From Nitrosopumilaceae archaeon (GTDB lineage Archaea > Thermoproteota > Nitrososphaeria > Nitrososphaerales > Nitrosopumilaceae): DNA of 64,000 nucleotides. The notes below the pieces were generated by a model. That model had not been told where the DNA came from. It saw only the letters and a list, made by a program, of their open reading frames with translations, and did no database searches. Positions 21,774 through 30,496 of this stretch are shown here, piece by piece (position 1 is the first letter of the stretch; each line of letters begins with the position of its first letter). Position numbers and translations under genes: made by a program. The stretch lies in contig JANQNN010000012.1 in assembly GCA_028279545.1 (NCBI GenBank), positions 62,001-126,000 on the forward strand, in the 5' to 3' direction.

Positions 21774-22253
21774 TTGTTGAAAAAGTGGAATTTAGTTCTA
21801 ATGGGTTTAATTGCAATGGGAGGAATTACAGTAGGAACTGCAATTGCGCAAGTTTATAATGAAAACGTAACAATAAATGGAAAGTTAACTGTTAATGATG
21901 CAGGATTACAATTTGAAAGAACTGACAATGTTCAAACTACGATGCGATTAATTAATGATGACAAACAAACCGTATTTCAATTTGAAGATCCTACCGAACT
22001 CCAGAAATATCTTATAAGAAGTACTGTAGGTACTTCAGGCGCCTTGGAATTTCTTGACTTCTCAGGTGCATCTCCAACTCCAAGAATCGATATGTCAATT
22101 GAAAGGTCTGACGGTAAAGTTGGAATTGGTACCGCTAATCCTACACAAGAATTAGATTTAGTTGGAAACTTTAAGCTTTCGGGTGATCTTATTGGGGTCT
22201 CGGGTTTGAAAATAACGCCAAACGGTGATTTGTGTTTGGGTGCAAACTGTTAA
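21774..22253 (+). CDS. secreted protein with tail-fibre-like VGIGTxxPxxxLDLxG motif
   Basis: 159 residues from a TTG; signal peptide about 1-25 (ends AIAQ). The mature part has beta-prism-like text: NVTINGKLTVNDAGLQFER, then near the end GKVGIGTANPTQELDLVGNF and a strand-rich close ending in CLGANC. The VGIGT.NP...L(D/L)V.G box is typical of phage tail fibres and bacterial adhesins, where it precedes a trimeric fold. Here it is on a short exported archaeal protein, so it may form surface fibres. The stop overlaps the next ATG (TAATG), coupling it to 22253. Confidence 0.7.
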   Translation: MLKKWNLVLMGLIAMGGITVGTAIAQVYNENVTINGKLTVNDAGLQFERTDNVQTTMRLINDDKQTVFQFEDPTELQKYLIRSTVGTSGALEFLDFSGASPTPRIDMSIERSDGKVGIGTANPTQELDLVGNFKLSGDLIGVSGLKITPNGDLCLGANC

Positions 22254-22756
22254 TGAAACAGAATAAAAGGATGACAAATGAAACGATAAATAACATGGAT
22301 GAAAACGGGAAAAAAGTTTCTTACACGGTTTTAATTTTGGGATTATTCTTTGCTACTTCTCAAAACTTTACAGATGATTTGTTTTTCCCAACTGTTCAGG
22401 CATCAGATAAAAATGAGAATTTATGCCAACAAAATAATGGGACGATTAATAATTCTTTTTTTCCATTGGAAAATTATAGGGATTACTGTCAAGGACTTGA
22501 TTCTTCTACTTGTGAACAAATTAATGGTACTTGGAAGTCTTGTTTAACGGAACAATATACTGGACAACCAAGCTACTCAGGAGTTTGTGTTTTATCAAAT
22601 ACATGTATCCTTTTTGATCAAGAGGTATATCAGAAGGAAATTGATCAGGAAAATCAAATTTTAATTCTTACTGTGATTATTACTTTGGGTTTACTTATCG
22701 CATTGTCAGTTTTTGTACTCAAGAAAATACGATCTCGTGGAGACATAATCAAATGA
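22253..22756 (+). CDS. Cys-rich membrane protein between fibre and subtilase genes
   Basis: 167 residues from the ATG overlapping the previous stop. It has an N-terminal hydrophobic segment (about 22-45), an outside domain with at least six Cys (NLCQQNNG, YRDYCQGLDSSTCEQ, WKSCL, GVCVLSNTC) and a C-terminal membrane helix (ILILTVIITLGLLIALSVFVL) with basic tail. The Cys pattern suggests disulfides. Its last 4 bp (ATGA) overlap the start of the subtilase gene, so all three genes are translated as a unit. It could anchor the fibre protein or the protease; no family recognised. Confidence 0.65.
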   Translation: MKQNKRMTNETINNMDENGKKVSYTVLILGLFFATSQNFTDDLFFPTVQASDKNENLCQQNNGTINNSFFPLENYRDYCQGLDSSTCEQINGTWKSCLTEQYTGQPSYSGVCVLSNTCILFDQEVYQKEIDQENQILILTVIITLGLLIALSVFVLKKIRSRGDIIK

Positions 22757-25155
22757 AAAAAAATTTTCTGTTAACGAGTTCCGGTTTAATTTTTCTTTTC
22801 TTTATTTCTATAGTTCCCTTTTCTTATTCTGAAGAAATAAAAGAATTTATAAAATCTGACATTCACCACTCCTCAAACACGGCAATAGAGGCTCTATTTG
22901 AAAAGAAAGAAAATTTTATGAATGAGTATAATCAAAAATATTCTAATTCTAGTTTTGAAAATTTAAATTTCAAAGAAATTCCAAACGATAGCCACGTAGA
23001 CGTTTCTATTTTAAATCTTAAAGAAATTTATCGGGATACTCCTTTATTGTGGCATGTTTATTTGAATGGAAATTATTCAAATAATTTACAATTTGGATCT
23101 GTAGACCTAAAGTTAAAATCAGAAAATTCTAATTATTTGTTAGCCGCAGGAACAATTGATGAAATTGAAGAATATTTTTTGAATAATTCCAAAGTAAAAA
23201 CAATTTTTCTTCCGCATTTAAAAACTTCCAAAGTTTCCTCTAACTCTATTTACGATCCATATGCCCTACATAATTCTAGGTATTCTGTAGTGCCTGAAAT
23301 CCCATTTAAATCAGAAACTTCAGTCTTTGAAACCAACTCCCAAAAAACCAAAAGGGAAATGTTAGTTCCTTCAATGAAAATTAATCCGTCCATACCAAAA
23401 TTGTTTAATTCAAACAACCAATCAGAAATATTTTTTTCAGATACTGATTCAAAGAATCGACTTCAATTATCAGTTTATGCCAAACCAGAATTTTTAAGTC
23501 AGATTCCAAGCTGGCTAAATGTTTCTTCAATTCACAATTACGAAAATTCAGAATTCCCTCATGTAAAAATTAATAGTTGGTTATCTATTTCGGATGTAAA
23601 TCTACTTGAGCGTGTTGAATCCGTAATTTTAATTGACTCAATACTTCGCCCAATTTCAAATAATCATGAATCCGGCCACACTACGGGCGATGGAATTACA
23701 ATAACACATGCAGATGACTTACATTTACAAGGAATAACAGGTGACAGCGTACGAGTTGCAGTTATTGATACGGGGTTCGATATGTTAGATCCTGTTTTAA
23801 ACGTCCCAAACGTTGTTGACACGAATTTCTTTGGATGTGCTGGGATAAATTGTTTCGGTGCGCCAGGTTATCATGGAAATTTAGTAGCGGAAATAGTTCT
23901 TGATATGGCACCTGATTCTGAATTGCTTTTATATGCAGCATTTGGAAATGATGATTTTGTTGATGCAGTAGATGAAGCAAGAAATAACAACGCAGACATT
24001 ATCATTAGTTCTATTGGTTGGTTTACTGATGGGGGAAAAACTAAACAGTATTTGGATGGAACCAGCAAAACCGCAGATGCTTATACTAGAGCTTCAAATG
24101 AGGATGGAATTTTAACTATTAATGCAGCCGCAAATCAAGGTAATCTACACACTTTTAGAACATATACGGAAGTTCCAATTGGGTTGATTCCTGATTTACC
24201 TCTTGGATTTCATCATGGAGCATTGGAATTTGACCCAACAGAAACTGGTGCAATGCGAGCCTGTTTGCCACTTACTGCCACTGAAGGCACCAATACATTA
24301 TTTGTTACATGGGATGATTGGTCTTGGGATCCAAATGGTCGTTTTGATGATTATAACGTTTTTGTATATGATGATACAATGAGCAATCGACTTTTTAGTA
24401 CAGGAGGAACAGACTCTCAGATAATTAATTATCCAAAAGAGTTAGTATTATTTGGTGTGGCACAAGGAGTCGAATCTGTATGTATTGTAATTACCAAGGG
24501 TGGGGCTTTCCCAACAGAAACGATTTATGATTTTCATATTCATAGCAGACAAAATTTTGAATTTCCTACAAACCATATTGTTTCTGCAGGGAGCCTCTTT
24601 ACTCCAGCCGATGGTCCAGAAACAATAGCTGTTGGAGCAATTGATTCCGTTTCGTTAACTTGGTGGGATGACTCCTCGCAAGGTCCAACTGATGATGGTA
24701 GAATAAAACCAGAAATATGTGCTCCAACAAATGTTGAACTTGACAGTAGCAAAGCCTTAGGACCTTTTGGAGGAACTTCAGCGGCAACTCCCCATGTTGC
24801 AGGTGCTGCAGCTTTATTACTTGAACAAGACCCTACTTTGTCAGTGAATGATTTACGTCAAATATTAATAGACAAGGCAACTTTTGATTCAAGTTATTCT
24901 ATAAACAACATTTGTGGAGCTGATTCAGGATTACTTTCCCTTGCTTGTTCTCCACCACAGTCAGGAGATTGGATTATCAATTTTGATTGTATCCTGCCAG
25001 AAAACACTGTAGCTCCTGGAAACGTAATTGTTGAAAATAATGCTGTACTTACAATCCCAAATGGACTTGTTTTAGATATAGATTTCCTTACTAGTCATCT
25101 TGAAATCAAAACGGGCAGCCAGGTTATGATTAAACAAGGTGGGCAAATTACATAG
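22753..25155 (+). CDS. large secreted subtilisin-like serine protease (S8)
   Basis: 800 residues with a signal peptide (about 1-26). After a long pro-region (about 27-320) comes the catalytic domain with D339 (VAVIDTGFD), H374 (GYHGNLVAE), the oxyanion N461 (AAANQGN) and S676 (GGTSAATPHVAG). The 215-residue gap between N and S holds an inserted beta-rich domain (DDYNVFVYDDTMSNRLFSTG), like the P/PPC-type domains seen in other exported subtilases. A short C-terminal part (ENTVAPGNVIVENNAVLTIPNG) looks like a beta-helix turn. It probably matures itself outside the cell. Coupled to the two genes upstream. Confidence 0.92.
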   Translation: MKKNFLLTSSGLIFLFFISIVPFSYSEEIKEFIKSDIHHSSNTAIEALFEKKENFMNEYNQKYSNSSFENLNFKEIPNDSHVDVSILNLKEIYRDTPLLWHVYLNGNYSNNLQFGSVDLKLKSENSNYLLAAGTIDEIEEYFLNNSKVKTIFLPHLKTSKVSSNSIYDPYALHNSRYSVVPEIPFKSETSVFETNSQKTKREMLVPSMKINPSIPKLFNSNNQSEIFFSDTDSKNRLQLSVYAKPEFLSQIPSWLNVSSIHNYENSEFPHVKINSWLSISDVNLLERVESVILIDSILRPISNNHESGHTTGDGITITHADDLHLQGITGDSVRVAVIDTGFDMLDPVLNVPNVVDTNFFGCAGINCFGAPGYHGNLVAEIVLDMAPDSELLLYAAFGNDDFVDAVDEARNNNADIIISSIGWFTDGGKTKQYLDGTSKTADAYTRASNEDGILTINAAANQGNLHTFRTYTEVPIGLIPDLPLGFHHGALEFDPTETGAMRACLPLTATEGTNTLFVTWDDWSWDPNGRFDDYNVFVYDDTMSNRLFSTGGTDSQIINYPKELVLFGVAQGVESVCIVITKGGAFPTETIYDFHIHSRQNFEFPTNHIVSAGSLFTPADGPETIAVGAIDSVSLTWWDDSSQGPTDDGRIKPEICAPTNVELDSSKALGPFGGTSAATPHVAGAAALLLEQDPTLSVNDLRQILIDKATFDSSYSINNICGADSGLLSLACSPPQSGDWIINFDCILPENTVAPGNVIVENNAVLTIPNGLVLDIDFLTSHLEIKTGSQVMIKQGGQIT

Positions 25156-25264
25156 AATCTAGTTGTTCTTGTGACTAGAAAATTATTACAAAAATGAACC
25201 CAAACCCCTAAACATTCAGTCTAAAACCTTAAGTGGGTTTTTGTAGATTTAGAGGATATTAACT

Positions 25265-27934
25265 ATGCATATTGATAAGGTCTTGCTTTTGGGAATTCTT
25301 TCAATTTTCATAGCCGAATCTGCGTACGCCCAATCAGAAAATATTCCAGATTTTTTCAACTCTTATCCCGTTATACTTTCTTCTGATGGAGATTTAGAGG
25401 AAAATCCTGAATTTTTTAATAATAATACATCTGAAGACTTTGCTCAGGATCATTTTGCTCAAAACCAAGAGCCTTTTGATTTTGATTCTGCCTTTGTTTC
25501 TTCTCATTCTGGTACTGGCTCTGTTGTTTTGGAAGGAATAATTCGTGACAGTGATTCAAATCCAGTATCTGATCTAAACATTAACCTATTTGGAACTATG
25601 AACCCTTCAAGAACCTTTTCAAACTCTGAGGGATATTACTCTCTAAAAAATGAACCCGAAACATATGGCCTATTTTTGCAATCCCTTTCACACAATAATT
25701 TTCCAAATTTCCCCAACCATTTTAACTTGCTTTCATCAAGTTTGCACCTTACAAGCAACACTGTCCAAGATTTAACAATTCCAAACATTTCACTTGATGT
25801 AACCGTAATAGATCAAAAAGGAAATCCAATTAACGACTCGACAATCACAGCAGTTGGAAAAGAATATAGTTCCAAGGAGGTAGCTGAAAATTTGGATTTT
25901 TATTATTATTTTAGAGAAACTGCTCAAACAGACCAATTTGGAAAAACTTCTCTCAATCTTTTTCCATCATCAGAAGTTAAATTTGTGATAATGCCACCTG
26001 ATAGTAGCAAATTATCCCCATTCCTTGTTTTCTTACCTGTTTACAATGACTCAGAAATTATCATTAAATACCCAACTCCTGTAAAGTTTGAAGGAACTAT
26101 AGATAATAAACAAGGTTCAAAAATTTCCGATCTTTTAGTTTTTCTTTATAGCGATTTGAACAAATTCTATGACTTAACAGATTCAAATGGGAACTATTTT
26201 GTCGATGTTGTCCCTGGAAATCATAACTTGTATTTGCTTGGATACCCTGATTATGATTATCCAAATTTGCCAGCGGTATTTGGGTTTCATTCCACTGACT
26301 TCGTAAAATTTTCAAAAGATAAAATTCTGGATTTAACTTTGCCAACAGTTTCACTAGATGTGACTGTTTTAGATTTTGAAGGAAACCCAGTAATCGGTTC
26401 ATCAATTACTGCAAGTGGGGAGGAATTAAAATCAAAAAATTTATCACCAGAAATTGAATTTAATTATCATTTCAGTGATAGTTCCCTAACAAATGATTCT
26501 GGAAAAACCTCGCTTGATTTACTTCAGTCCGGGGAAATAACCGTAACGATAATTCCTCCTAACGGAAGCAATCTAAAACCTTTACATCAAAATGGATTGT
26601 CTCTTTTTGAAAACGATGAAAGAGCCTTTGTTTTAGAATCAAATAGCATCGAAAATATTTCCAACAACCCAATTGTTAGAATACCATTGGGATCTGGAAT
26701 TCCTGGATGTGAGACTCTTTCTATATGCTTTATTCCCTATGATTTACAGGTTTATAGAGGTTCCACTGTAATTTGGTCCAATGACGATACATCAACTCAT
26801 ACCGTAACTGCTGGAACCGCATCAGGTGGCCCTTCGGGAAAGTTTGATAGTAGTTTGTTTTTGACAGGAACAACTTTTTCACATACTTTTGAAAATATTG
26901 GTGTGTTTGAGTATTTCTGCATGATTCATCCCTGGATGAATGGCAAAGTAACAGTCTCTGAAAAACCTTTCAAAGAATCTTCAGGCGGAAACGAATGGGA
27001 TACAAGGCCTACCTTTGGAGAAAGCCACGAGACAGAAAACCAACTAATTGTTGAAAACGGTTTTACCTTTAATTCAAATCAGTTTACACTTACTGATAAC
27101 CACCATACTGACTTTGACCAACAATCCATTCTTGTTGGTACTACAAACTCGTTTTCTGCAAAAGTCTATGCTGATAAGAAATTAAAAGTCCAAGAGTTTC
27201 TGTTTGGGATTCCAAATGTAGGTGAATCTCACTTGGCAGAATTAGGAGTAGAGGTATGGTATGACAATGATGGAAATATTGAGGACATTAGGGTAAATCA
27301 AAAATCAAATGTAATCGATGAAACTTCATTAATAGTAAGTCATGACAAGACCAAATGTGCATCATCTGACATAGAATCAAAATGTGACACAACCAAGGTA
27401 TCTATGACCTTTTTGGAACCGCTAAAGGATAATGTTATGGCAATAAAGGCAATTGATTTCAAGAATCGTGACCAGCGAACATATCTTAATGACGGGTTTG
27501 ATGTTTCTGGTGAATCACTAAATCCAATGAAGATAAAGATGATTCCATCTACAATTAAAAATGAAGGACTGCTCAAGGTAACCCAAGTTGAAAAATACAG
27601 TACATATTGGATTACTGAAGATGGACGAATATTTGAGATGAACAGCTTTGGTTCATTCAAGCAAGTAAATCCAAAGTTTGAACGTTTCTCAGATTCTGGA
27701 AATGCCTTTACAAGAATGCATTCTGATTTTGATAAAATAGTTGATTATGAAAAAGAAAGAGCACAAGATGTATTTGACTCTACCAAAATAATCTCAGAAT
27801 TGCCGGATAGCTTTGATTATCATTTTGAAATTACTGAGAGAATGAATGATGAGATAAAACGAGAAATGACTAAACAAGAAAATATTGCAAAAAAGATTCT
27901 GGATAGGATGGATATGCAGACACGGCATCATTAG
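25265..27934 (+). CDS. large secreted protein with Cna-B-like repeats and plastocyanin domain
   Basis: 889 residues, signal peptide about 1-22 (ends AYAQS). Repeated beta domains follow: two carboxypeptidase-regulatory-like units (LEGIIRDSDSNPVSDLNINL; FEGTIDNKQGSKISDLLVFL) each followed by a Cna-B-like unit (SLDVTVIDQKGNPINDSTIT; SLDVTVLDFEGNPVIGSSIT). Near residues 480-570 is a type I copper domain with the ligand set H (STHTVTAG) and C-x4-H-x4-M (EYFCMIHPWMNG). The C-terminal 320 residues are a further domain ending in a coiled helix. It sits 109 bp after the subtilase and likely binds copper at the surface; a substrate of the protease is possible. Confidence 0.85.
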   Translation: MHIDKVLLLGILSIFIAESAYAQSENIPDFFNSYPVILSSDGDLEENPEFFNNNTSEDFAQDHFAQNQEPFDFDSAFVSSHSGTGSVVLEGIIRDSDSNPVSDLNINLFGTMNPSRTFSNSEGYYSLKNEPETYGLFLQSLSHNNFPNFPNHFNLLSSSLHLTSNTVQDLTIPNISLDVTVIDQKGNPINDSTITAVGKEYSSKEVAENLDFYYYFRETAQTDQFGKTSLNLFPSSEVKFVIMPPDSSKLSPFLVFLPVYNDSEIIIKYPTPVKFEGTIDNKQGSKISDLLVFLYSDLNKFYDLTDSNGNYFVDVVPGNHNLYLLGYPDYDYPNLPAVFGFHSTDFVKFSKDKILDLTLPTVSLDVTVLDFEGNPVIGSSITASGEELKSKNLSPEIEFNYHFSDSSLTNDSGKTSLDLLQSGEITVTIIPPNGSNLKPLHQNGLSLFENDERAFVLESNSIENISNNPIVRIPLGSGIPGCETLSICFIPYDLQVYRGSTVIWSNDDTSTHTVTAGTASGGPSGKFDSSLFLTGTTFSHTFENIGVFEYFCMIHPWMNGKVTVSEKPFKESSGGNEWDTRPTFGESHETENQLIVENGFTFNSNQFTLTDNHHTDFDQQSILVGTTNSFSAKVYADKKLKVQEFLFGIPNVGESHLAELGVEVWYDNDGNIEDIRVNQKSNVIDETSLIVSHDKTKCASSDIESKCDTTKVSMTFLEPLKDNVMAIKAIDFKNRDQRTYLNDGFDVSGESLNPMKIKMIPSTIKNEGLLKVTQVEKYSTYWITEDGRIFEMNSFGSFKQVNPKFERFSDSGNAFTRMHSDFDKIVDYEKERAQDVFDSTKIISELPDSFDYHFEITERMNDEIKREMTKQENIAKKILDRMDMQTRHH

Positions 27935-28451: not shown

Positions 28452-29594
28452 ATGAGAATCCCATTTTTTTTATTTTTTAGCGTATTGTTTTTTGGCACTT
28501 TTGGTATTTCAGATGCTTTTGCTGCTGAAAATGACAAGATCTGTGTTGATAAAGTGTTTATGGAAAGTAAAAATGGTAGACTTGCCTGTGTAACTCCATC
28601 AACTGCTGAAAAACTTGTAGAACGTGGATGGGGAATTATGTTAGATAAACCCATGAAAAATAATGACAAATCAGTTGTAGTGATGGTTGCACCATCAATT
28701 AATGAAGAATATTATAAAGACGTATTTTCAGAAATTATCGAATATGATATCAATACCGTCAATACTATCTATGGAAAAGATAATGTTGTCTTACTTGTAG
28801 ATGAGGCAACAAAGCATTTGTTTGAAGGACAAATTCCAGATGATGTTATTCGTGTATCTAATGTTGCTGATATTTGGATTCGTGATTTTGGAACAGTATC
28901 TACTATAACTGAGGTAAAGTTTGATTACAAACCTCAATATCTAGAAAATGATGATTCTGTCTGGATTGATACTAGCTATAGAGATTGGTTTGTTGCAAAG
29001 AATCTTTCTAGTAAAAAATCTAATTTAATTTTGGATGGTGGTAATCTTGTCTTTAATGGAGAAGATAAAGCAATTACAACTGTTAGAGTTTTTGAAGATA
29101 ATCCGCGATATTCTGAATCAGAAATTGATTCAATGCTAAAAGAACTTCTAGAGGTAACTGAAATTGCATATCTTCCTGAAGAAGAAGGTGACATCACGGG
29201 ACATTCAGATGGAATGGCTATGTGGACAGAATCTGATAAATTGCTAGTTAATGAATATCAAGAACCATTTAGAAGTCAAGTTTTATTGGAACTTGAAAAT
29301 TCTTTTTCTGATATTGAGATAGTTGAGATTCCCTATGATCTTCAGACCGAATTTTGGAGAGAATGGCCTTCTGCATGTGGTTATTATCTCAATTCACTAG
29401 TAACTGAGGATTACATCTATGTTCCAGTTTATGGTTTGGATAAAGATCAACAAATCTTAGAGTTGATACAGTCACATGCTAGCAAACAAGTTGTTAGTAT
29501 TGATGCCTCTAATGTTTGTTTTATGGGTGGAAGTGTTAGATGTCTAACCTGGACTACAGATGGAATCAATGCTGAAAAAATTCTTGAAAAATAA
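28452..29594 (+). CDS. secreted agmatine/peptidylarginine deiminase-family enzyme
   Basis: 380 residues with a signal peptide (about 1-24, ends DAFAAE). A short N-terminal domain (DKICVDKVFMESKNGRLACV, TPSTAEKLVERGWG) of the type I associate with thaumarchaeal exported proteins precedes the catalytic domain. The deiminase residues are present: D145 (WIRDFG), H251 (GHSDGM) and the nucleophile C364 (GGSVRCLTW), plus LDGGNLV. Family members hydrolyse agmatine or protein/peptide arginine to citrulline-type products and ammonia. An exported version could release ammonia outside the cell, a useful product for an ammonia oxidiser (inference). It lies between repeats A and B. Confidence 0.88.
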   Translation: MRIPFFLFFSVLFFGTFGISDAFAAENDKICVDKVFMESKNGRLACVTPSTAEKLVERGWGIMLDKPMKNNDKSVVVMVAPSINEEYYKDVFSEIIEYDINTVNTIYGKDNVVLLVDEATKHLFEGQIPDDVIRVSNVADIWIRDFGTVSTITEVKFDYKPQYLENDDSVWIDTSYRDWFVAKNLSSKKSNLILDGGNLVFNGEDKAITTVRVFEDNPRYSESEIDSMLKELLEVTEIAYLPEEEGDITGHSDGMAMWTESDKLLVNEYQEPFRSQVLLELENSFSDIEIVEIPYDLQTEFWREWPSACGYYLNSLVTEDYIYVPVYGLDKDQQILELIQSHASKQVVSIDASNVCFMGGSVRCLTWTTDGINAEKILEK

Positions 29595-29740: not shown

Positions 29741-30496
29741 TTAATCACTGTTTTCTTCGTTTTTCTTTTTATTGAATTTGTTGTATCCTTCTTGGTTGTA
29801 TCCATCTTTGTCGTAACCTAGGTGATTATATCCTAGTCTATCATACCCCCTACTATCAAATCCATCTTCGTCAAATCCGTCTAAATCATACCCATTTTCA
29901 TCGTATCCATTTTCATCATACCCTTTCCTATCATACCCATTTTCATCAAATCCGTCTTTGTTATAACCGCCTTTGTCGTATCCTTTTTTGTCATACCCGT
30001 CTATGTCATAACCGTCTTTGTTAAACCCGTTTTTGTTATAACCGTCTTTGTTAAACCCGTTTTTGTTAAAACCATCTATGTTAAAACCATCTTTGTCGTA
30101 TCCTTTTTTGTTAAACCCATCTTTATCAAAAGCAATCTTTGTATCGATGTGAATTCCATCTAGAGAAAAACCTCGGATATCATACCCATTTCTGTCGTAT
30201 CCTTTTTTGTCGTATCCTTTTTTGTTAAAACCATCTTTGTTGTAACCCTTGATATCAAATCCATCTTCGTCATACCCTTCTTTGTACCCGTTTTTGTCGT
30301 ATCCTTTTTTATCAAATCCTTTTTTGTTAAACCCTTTTTTGTTAAACCCTTTTCTGTCGTATCCTTTTTTGTTGTATCCATTCCTATCGTATCCATCTTT
30401 ATCATAGCCCTCTCTGTCGAACCCTTTTTTGTCATACCCATCTAGGTCATATCCATGCTCATCAAACGTATGAGTAAATCTATCAAACAACCCCAT
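29741..30496 (-). CDS. pentapeptide-repeat protein, ([YF][DN]xxG)n
   Basis: 251 residues, about 45 repeats of a five-residue unit of form [Y/F][D/N]-x-x-G (for example YDKDG, FNKKG, YDENG), interrupted once near the middle by a non-repeat block (IHIDTKIA) and with one four-residue unit (YKEG). The start (MGLFDRFTHTFDEHG) has no signal peptide. Such YDxxG proteins are known from scattered bacteria, archaea and eukaryotes, but I know no function. Regular Gly with alternating aromatic and Asp/Lys residues suggests a solenoid or a charged self-assembling fibre, perhaps calcium-binding through the Asp residues (inference). It lies between repeats B and C. Confidence 0.8.
   Translation of the reverse strand: MGLFDRFTHTFDEHGYDLDGYDKKGFDREGYDKDGYDRNGYNKKGYDRKGFNKKGFNKKGFDKKGYDKNGYKEGYDEDGFDIKGYNKDGFNKKGYDKKGYDRNGYDIRGFSLDGIHIDTKIAFDKDGFNKKGYDKDGFNIDGFNKNGFNKDGYNKNGFNKDGYDIDGYDKKGYDKGGYNKDGFDENGYDRKGYDENGYDENGYDLDGFDEDGFDSRGYDRLGYNHLGYDKDGYNQEGYNKFNKKKNEENSD

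Follow-up and report, generated by a model that had tools for sequence, protein, structure and literature searches.

The closest described relatives of the fibre reported here are the mosaic adhesive trimer (MAT) fibres of Bdellovibrio bacteriovorus, which this predator displays on its surface as intertwined trimeric beta-prisms (PMC10769870). Like the MAT fibres, the proteins of our family are secreted, carry a homologous VGIGT shaft, and vary in length with the number of shaft repeats. In contrast to the MAT fibres, they are far shorter, have neither an S74 chaperone nor a folded tip domain, end in a 10-residue tip containing Cys, and are paired with enzymes that bear a second module, here called the dock.

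Other known systems resemble this pairing in arrangement. In the cohesin-dockerin pairs of cellulosomes, as in our case, a small module sits at either end of varied secreted hydrolases and its structural partner is encoded nearby. However, no sequence relation was found: the dock is a predicted beta-helix, and Pfam gave no dockerin match in docks or cargo and no cohesin match in the fibre. Sorting domains of the PGF-CTERM type and the CTDs of type IX secretion likewise are terminal domains common to varied secreted cargo, whereas the dock can be N-terminal, internal, or free-standing, and the dock of the subtilase described below has no NCBIfam match. Expanded secreted subtilases in ammonia-oxidising archaea have a precedent in sponge-associated thaumarchaea. 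There, extracellular S08A subtilases are expanded, with serpins nearby in some, and the passages considered here contain no pairing of these enzymes with a fibre or dock (PMC6790972); the term "tail fiber" is absent from its text.

Literature searches for a pairing of fibre and dock found no description of one. The recurrence of this pairing with other enzymes suggests an undescribed way to put enzymes on cell-surface stalks.

Gene content of the locus

The window, which is the whole stretch of DNA that was analysed (64,000 nucleotides), comes from an ammonia-oxidising archaeon, whose genome of 1.92 Mb in 57 contigs is 99% complete. The features of interest are as follows.

21774..22253, + strand: short secreted fibre protein (159 aa, TTG start) with an N-terminal hydrophobic or signal segment, a VGIGT-type shaft, and a C-terminal Cys tip
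22113..22169, + strand: VGIGT...LDLVGN shaft motif (residues 114-132), homologous to the Bdellovibrio MAT fibre shaft
22221..22250, + strand: C-terminal tip NGDLCLGANC (residues 150-159) with the invariant C[IL]Gx1-2C signature
22253..22756, + strand: small membrane protein (167 aa, 6 Cys, C-terminal hydrophobic segment at residues 132-161), ATG inside TAATG
22753..25155, + strand: subtilase (peptidase S8, 800 aa; Pfam S8 E=1.3e-24; D339/H374/S676), the cargo enzyme
24940..25152, + strand: dock domain (residues 730-800 of the subtilase, ~71 residues), a predicted small beta-helix with a C-x-PP-xx-GDW-x-I-xxx-C head
25265..27934, + strand: 889-aa copper protein with CarboxypepD_reg repeats, an amicyanin-like domain, and a 320-aa C-terminal domain
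26723-26956, + strand: amicyanin/plastocyanin domain of the copper protein (H512, C552, H555, M558)
26972-27931, + strand: 320-aa C-terminal domain of the copper protein, also present in several further secreted proteins that the genome encodes

A previous sequence-only reading had described three overlapping genes for a VGIGT-type fibre protein, a membrane protein with six or more Cys, and an 800-residue protease with an intact catalytic set, followed by an 889-residue protein with Cna-B-like repeats and a type I copper site. The gene structure was borne out. The three genes overlap on the + strand, through TAATG between the fibre and membrane protein genes and through ATGA at the subtilase start, and the copper protein gene lies 3' of them. 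The 159-aa ORF contains GKVGIGTANP...GNFKLSG, the membrane protein has exactly six Cys, and the Asp/His/Ser triad of the S8 fold is present in the subtilase, with N461 as the probable oxyanion residue. The "Cna-B-like" part of the last protein corresponds to the CarboxypepD_reg repeats, and its copper site to the amicyanin/plastocyanin domain. For the membrane protein, the listed ORF begins with GTG at 22232, and we adopted the ATG start at 22253. Two features had gone unnoticed in the sequence-only reading: the domain at residues 730-800 of the subtilase, which other proteins share, and the conserved Cys at the tip of the fibre.

The exact four-gene order is not conserved across ammonia-oxidising archaea. 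Of nine further genomes in the genus, one encodes a relative of the subtilase (38% identity over query residues 196-730). The membrane protein has no relative across 249 other Nitrosopumilaceae genomes, which rules it out as a conserved module partner; its sole relative is a weak one (33%) in the same genome at C13:47375.

The copper protein is probably a neighbour and not a core part of the module. The 109-nt gap 5' of its gene folds no better than shuffled sequence and therefore gives no support for a terminator or for a shared transcript with the copper gene. Its 320-residue C-terminal domain, for which there is no Pfam match, is also found in a protein with a subtilase domain on contig C30, and a fragment of it lies after a metallopeptidase on contig C7. 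These two occurrences hint at a connection with proteases rather than with the fibre.

The fibre family and its cysteine tip

Five fibre genes are encoded at four sites of the genome. Because the window fibre has paralogues at the three other sites as well as homologues elsewhere, it is more than a chance resemblance. A single-protein search of genome contigs with the window fibre retrieved no relatives. The family is rare: the first profile recovered it in 12 of 250 Nitrosopumilaceae genomes and a wider profile added one (13/250), and outside the Nitrosopumilaceae a 400-genome sample of the class gave only two weak matches.

When 14 archaeal fibres from ten genomes were aligned, they had in common an N-terminal hydrophobic segment and at least one VGIGTxxPxxxLDVxGNI unit. 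The motif C[IL]GxC or C[IL]GxxC was invariant (14/14) and lay no more than four residues from the stop. No Pfam match to an S74 chaperone or a folded adhesive tip domain was found in these 14 members; the window fibre simply ends in the tip listed above. Four bacterial genomes together have 12 more fibre genes with the tip, which is there even when no VGIGT shaft motif is obvious.

The family profile matches MAT fibre structures through the shaft (8ond, E=1.5e-15; 8oml, 7e-10; 8ol4, 8e-10; 8ojn, 7e-8) and, again through the shaft, the myelin regulatory factor structure 7dc3. The earlier proposal of a surface fibre is thus supported as regards its fibre nature, since the shaft is homologous to that of solved trimeric fibres, and the same homology makes it plausible that the window fibre would trimerise. 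An AF2 monomer model of this protein was of poor quality, with a pLDDT of 67.6. Collagens have C-terminal cystine knots in which closely spaced Cys residues lie at the end of the trimer. By analogy, the closely spaced Cys of the fibre tip could tie three chains together.

A protein of ~90 residues with a single TM segment and two conserved Cys adjoins the fibre in 8 of the 14 members (eight genomes), with a ninth case at L153, and often lies inside glycan-synthesis clusters (loci L038, L059-L063, L065, L066, and L153). It is likely a partner or anchor of the fibre. The window locus lacks this protein.

The dock and its linkage to the fibre

The dock recurs in 17 secreted proteins of the genome, including the window subtilase, with the consensus C-x-PP-xx-GDW-x-I-xxx-CTL...NVxVxxxxxLTIPxGxxLxIDF...LxVKSGSGVLIKxGGxI. 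AF2 predicts the small beta-helix with a pLDDT of 98. Pfam has no family for the dock, and Foldseek matched it to nothing in the PDB or among viral folds at E<0.001; its best PDB matches, which have E of ~1 or more, include tapirin-type adhesins and ice-binding beta-helices. No dock was found in plasmids. The domain is often C-terminal on its cargo, but it also directly follows the signal peptide (L123, L149, L150, and L154), is internal in G236 and G018, and in a Desulfobacterales genome forms a free-standing secreted protein of 112 residues.

Where the function of the cargo is recognisable, it is mostly predicted to be hydrolytic. Peptidases are represented by the S8 subtilase of the window and by M12 reprolysins (contig C7 of the same genome and Pontiellaceae), and phosphoesterases by calcineurin-type metallophosphoesterases (CPR3 and Desulfobacterales). 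Other cargo includes GH43, glucose/sorbosone dehydrogenase, NHL propeller, right-handed beta-helix, PKD, and Ig-like proteins.

At three of the four fibre loci of the genome, a dock gene follows directly or one gene downstream, with frames that overlap or nearly abut. We estimate the chance of this arrangement roughly at 1.5e-5, assuming ~2,200 genes. In the window (21774-25155), a tip-bearing fibre and a dock-bearing cargo protein are encoded in one gene run. The run on contig C7 consists of two fibres and then a reprolysin-like metallopeptidase with a dock, and that on contig C42 of a fibre followed by a 672-residue dock protein. The fourth site, on contig C17, has no linked dock gene. The fibre-protease combination that the sequence-only reading considered undescribed therefore recurs at a second site with a different protease, and we found no prior description of it; the copper protein does not appear to belong to it.

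Linkage extends to other archaea. Dock genes lie within one gene of a fibre in four further genomes (G246, G150, G144, and G122) and a few genes away in G129. Among 250 Nitrosopumilaceae genomes, 13 carry the fibre, 15 the dock, and 12 both (Fisher 6e-17, a value that ignores the relatedness of the genomes). With only tip-bearing fibres counted, the dock co-occurs in 9 of 10 cases (Fisher 5e-12, likewise ignoring relatedness). Most archaeal dock genes do not adjoin a fibre. Three dock-bearing genomes have no profile-detected fibre (G018, with 12 docks, G063, and G236), nor did the stretches examined near their docks show a tip. Conversely, G077 has a fibre and no detected dock. The fibre loci on contig C17 and in G077, G067, and G214 lie in groups of glycan or nucleotide-sugar genes, and none of the nearest genes examined encodes a dock. 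Unlinked archaeal docks may act in trans, pair with fibres that the profile missed, or have a role independent of the fibre. The Cys-W-Cys head is kept in all 23 fibre-linked docks and in 38 of 52 unlinked ones (p=0.004, from a comparison made post hoc).

For a test that does not depend on the dock, a DNA pattern for the tip alone was run over GTDB genome contigs. It returned 22 stretches, 11 of which have an ORF that matches the tip, and in 10 of these 11 no more than one residue separates the tip from the stop. Bacteria account for four of the ten ORFs, which come from the CPR3 bacterium GWF2_35_18, Pontiellaceae, a Desulfobacterales bacterium, and bacterium Gpa_12. In each of these four genomes the fibre-led run continues with a dock-bearing gene. 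Searches of the whole genomes revealed 15 docks, every one of them in a run with tip-bearing fibres. One arrangement in the Desulfobacterales genome, for example, is dock-dock-dock-fibre-fibre-fibre-dock-dock-dock. Only 1 of 390 genomes sampled from the class of the Desulfobacterales bacterium carries a dock, namely that genome itself, so the dock is not a common background. Fibre and dock are the only gene families common to the archaeal and bacterial runs examined. The tip-bearing fibre and the dock are two unnamed families whose pairing is rare and cross-domain.

Interpretation of the fibre-dock pairing

The coupling of fibre and dock is well supported. We infer from it a two-component surface module in which trimeric stalks display enzymes through an interaction between tip and dock, and we assign this reading a probability of about 0.5. 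One component would be a short secreted trimeric fibre with a MAT-like shaft and a Cys tip at its extreme C-terminus. The other would be a set of secreted cargo proteins, each with a ~71-residue beta-helix dock that usually has a Cys pair of its own. Fibre and cargo would be co-produced and exported, the fibre would stand on the cell surface, and the dock would attach to the Cys tip, possibly via disulfides, and the stalks would in this way carry the enzymes. The simplest reading has stalk and enzyme meet at tip and dock, because shaft and cargo vary while tip and dock are constant, and both constant parts carry paired Cys. The physical docking, the disulfide chemistry, the anchoring, and the substrates are each proposed by inference. 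The broader form of this reading, a display system spread between archaea and bacteria in which the Cys-tipped trimeric fibre is the receptor for a dock on interchangeable secreted enzymes, unrelated in sequence to the cellulosome, is one that we advance tentatively, at slightly less than even odds.

If stalk display is correct, some ammonia-oxidising archaea, a CPR bacterium, and others would alike present proteases, phosphoesterases, and glycosidases on surface stalks. This would bear on how mostly autotrophic archaea gain access to organic nitrogen or phosphorus, or on interactions with neighbours. Tip and dock could also provide a new protein-coupling pair for biotechnology.

The many unlinked archaeal docks, the three genomes with docks and no detected fibre, and the four archaeal fibre loci without a dock in the nearest genes would all fit a reading in which the two are surface or adhesion proteins that are independent of each other and make no contact, being carried along in the same accessory surface-protein islands, the dock serving only as a beta-helical cap or adhesive patch. 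We regard this as the strongest of the rival readings, but rather unlikely. All 15 bacterial docks lie in fibre clusters of four unrelated genomes, the genes overlap and co-occur at genome level, and no families other than these two are common to the archaeal and bacterial runs. It is more doubtful that tip and dock are sorting signals for one common export or anchoring machine and cluster as substrates of one pathway. Such signals would account for the frequent C-terminal position of the dock on varied cargo and for the conserved Cys usual in both tip and dock, but docks that follow a signal peptide, lie internally, or stand free are hard to accommodate, and a common third gene was not seen in the clusters examined. 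A strictly C-terminal sorting signal is disfavoured by the N-terminal copies.

The sequence-only reading had raised the possibility of a self-processing appendage or a competition system, in which the protease would process the fibre. The subtilase and fibre do overlap in one gene run and a metallopeptidase follows a second fibre locus, but partners elsewhere are a metallophosphoesterase, GH43, or proteins without a peptidase match. Proteolysis is therefore not the common feature, and because the protease is only one of several interchangeable enzymes, self-processing is unsupported. With no immunity or toxin gene recognised in the window run, we consider this explanation very improbable. The least credible reading is that the locus is the remnant of a virus or provirus tail. 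The VGIGT motif does resemble tail fibres (PHROG 9942, E=0.028), but the run has cellular neighbours (a Rieske protein and a peptidyl-arginine deiminase family protein), searches of viral contigs with the tip pattern and of phages with a bacterial fibre found no match, and the fibres have hydrophobic, signal-like N-termini.

Several other genes were observed in the course of this analysis. A protein of the peptidyl-arginine deiminase family (PF04371, E=5e-30), predicted to be secreted, is encoded 3' of the module at 28452-29594 of the window, and a 251-residue protein made almost entirely of G[YF][DN]xxG repeats at 29741-30496 on the - strand. Elsewhere in the genome, a gene whose product resembles serpin-type protease inhibitors (L034:317-1513; G000:C13, ~33 kb before the fibre) has genes for a copper-domain protein and a dock protein nearby. 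L037 (G000:C56) encodes two secreted proteins of very large size, both composed of TNNGTITNNG-type repeats and ending in a dock.
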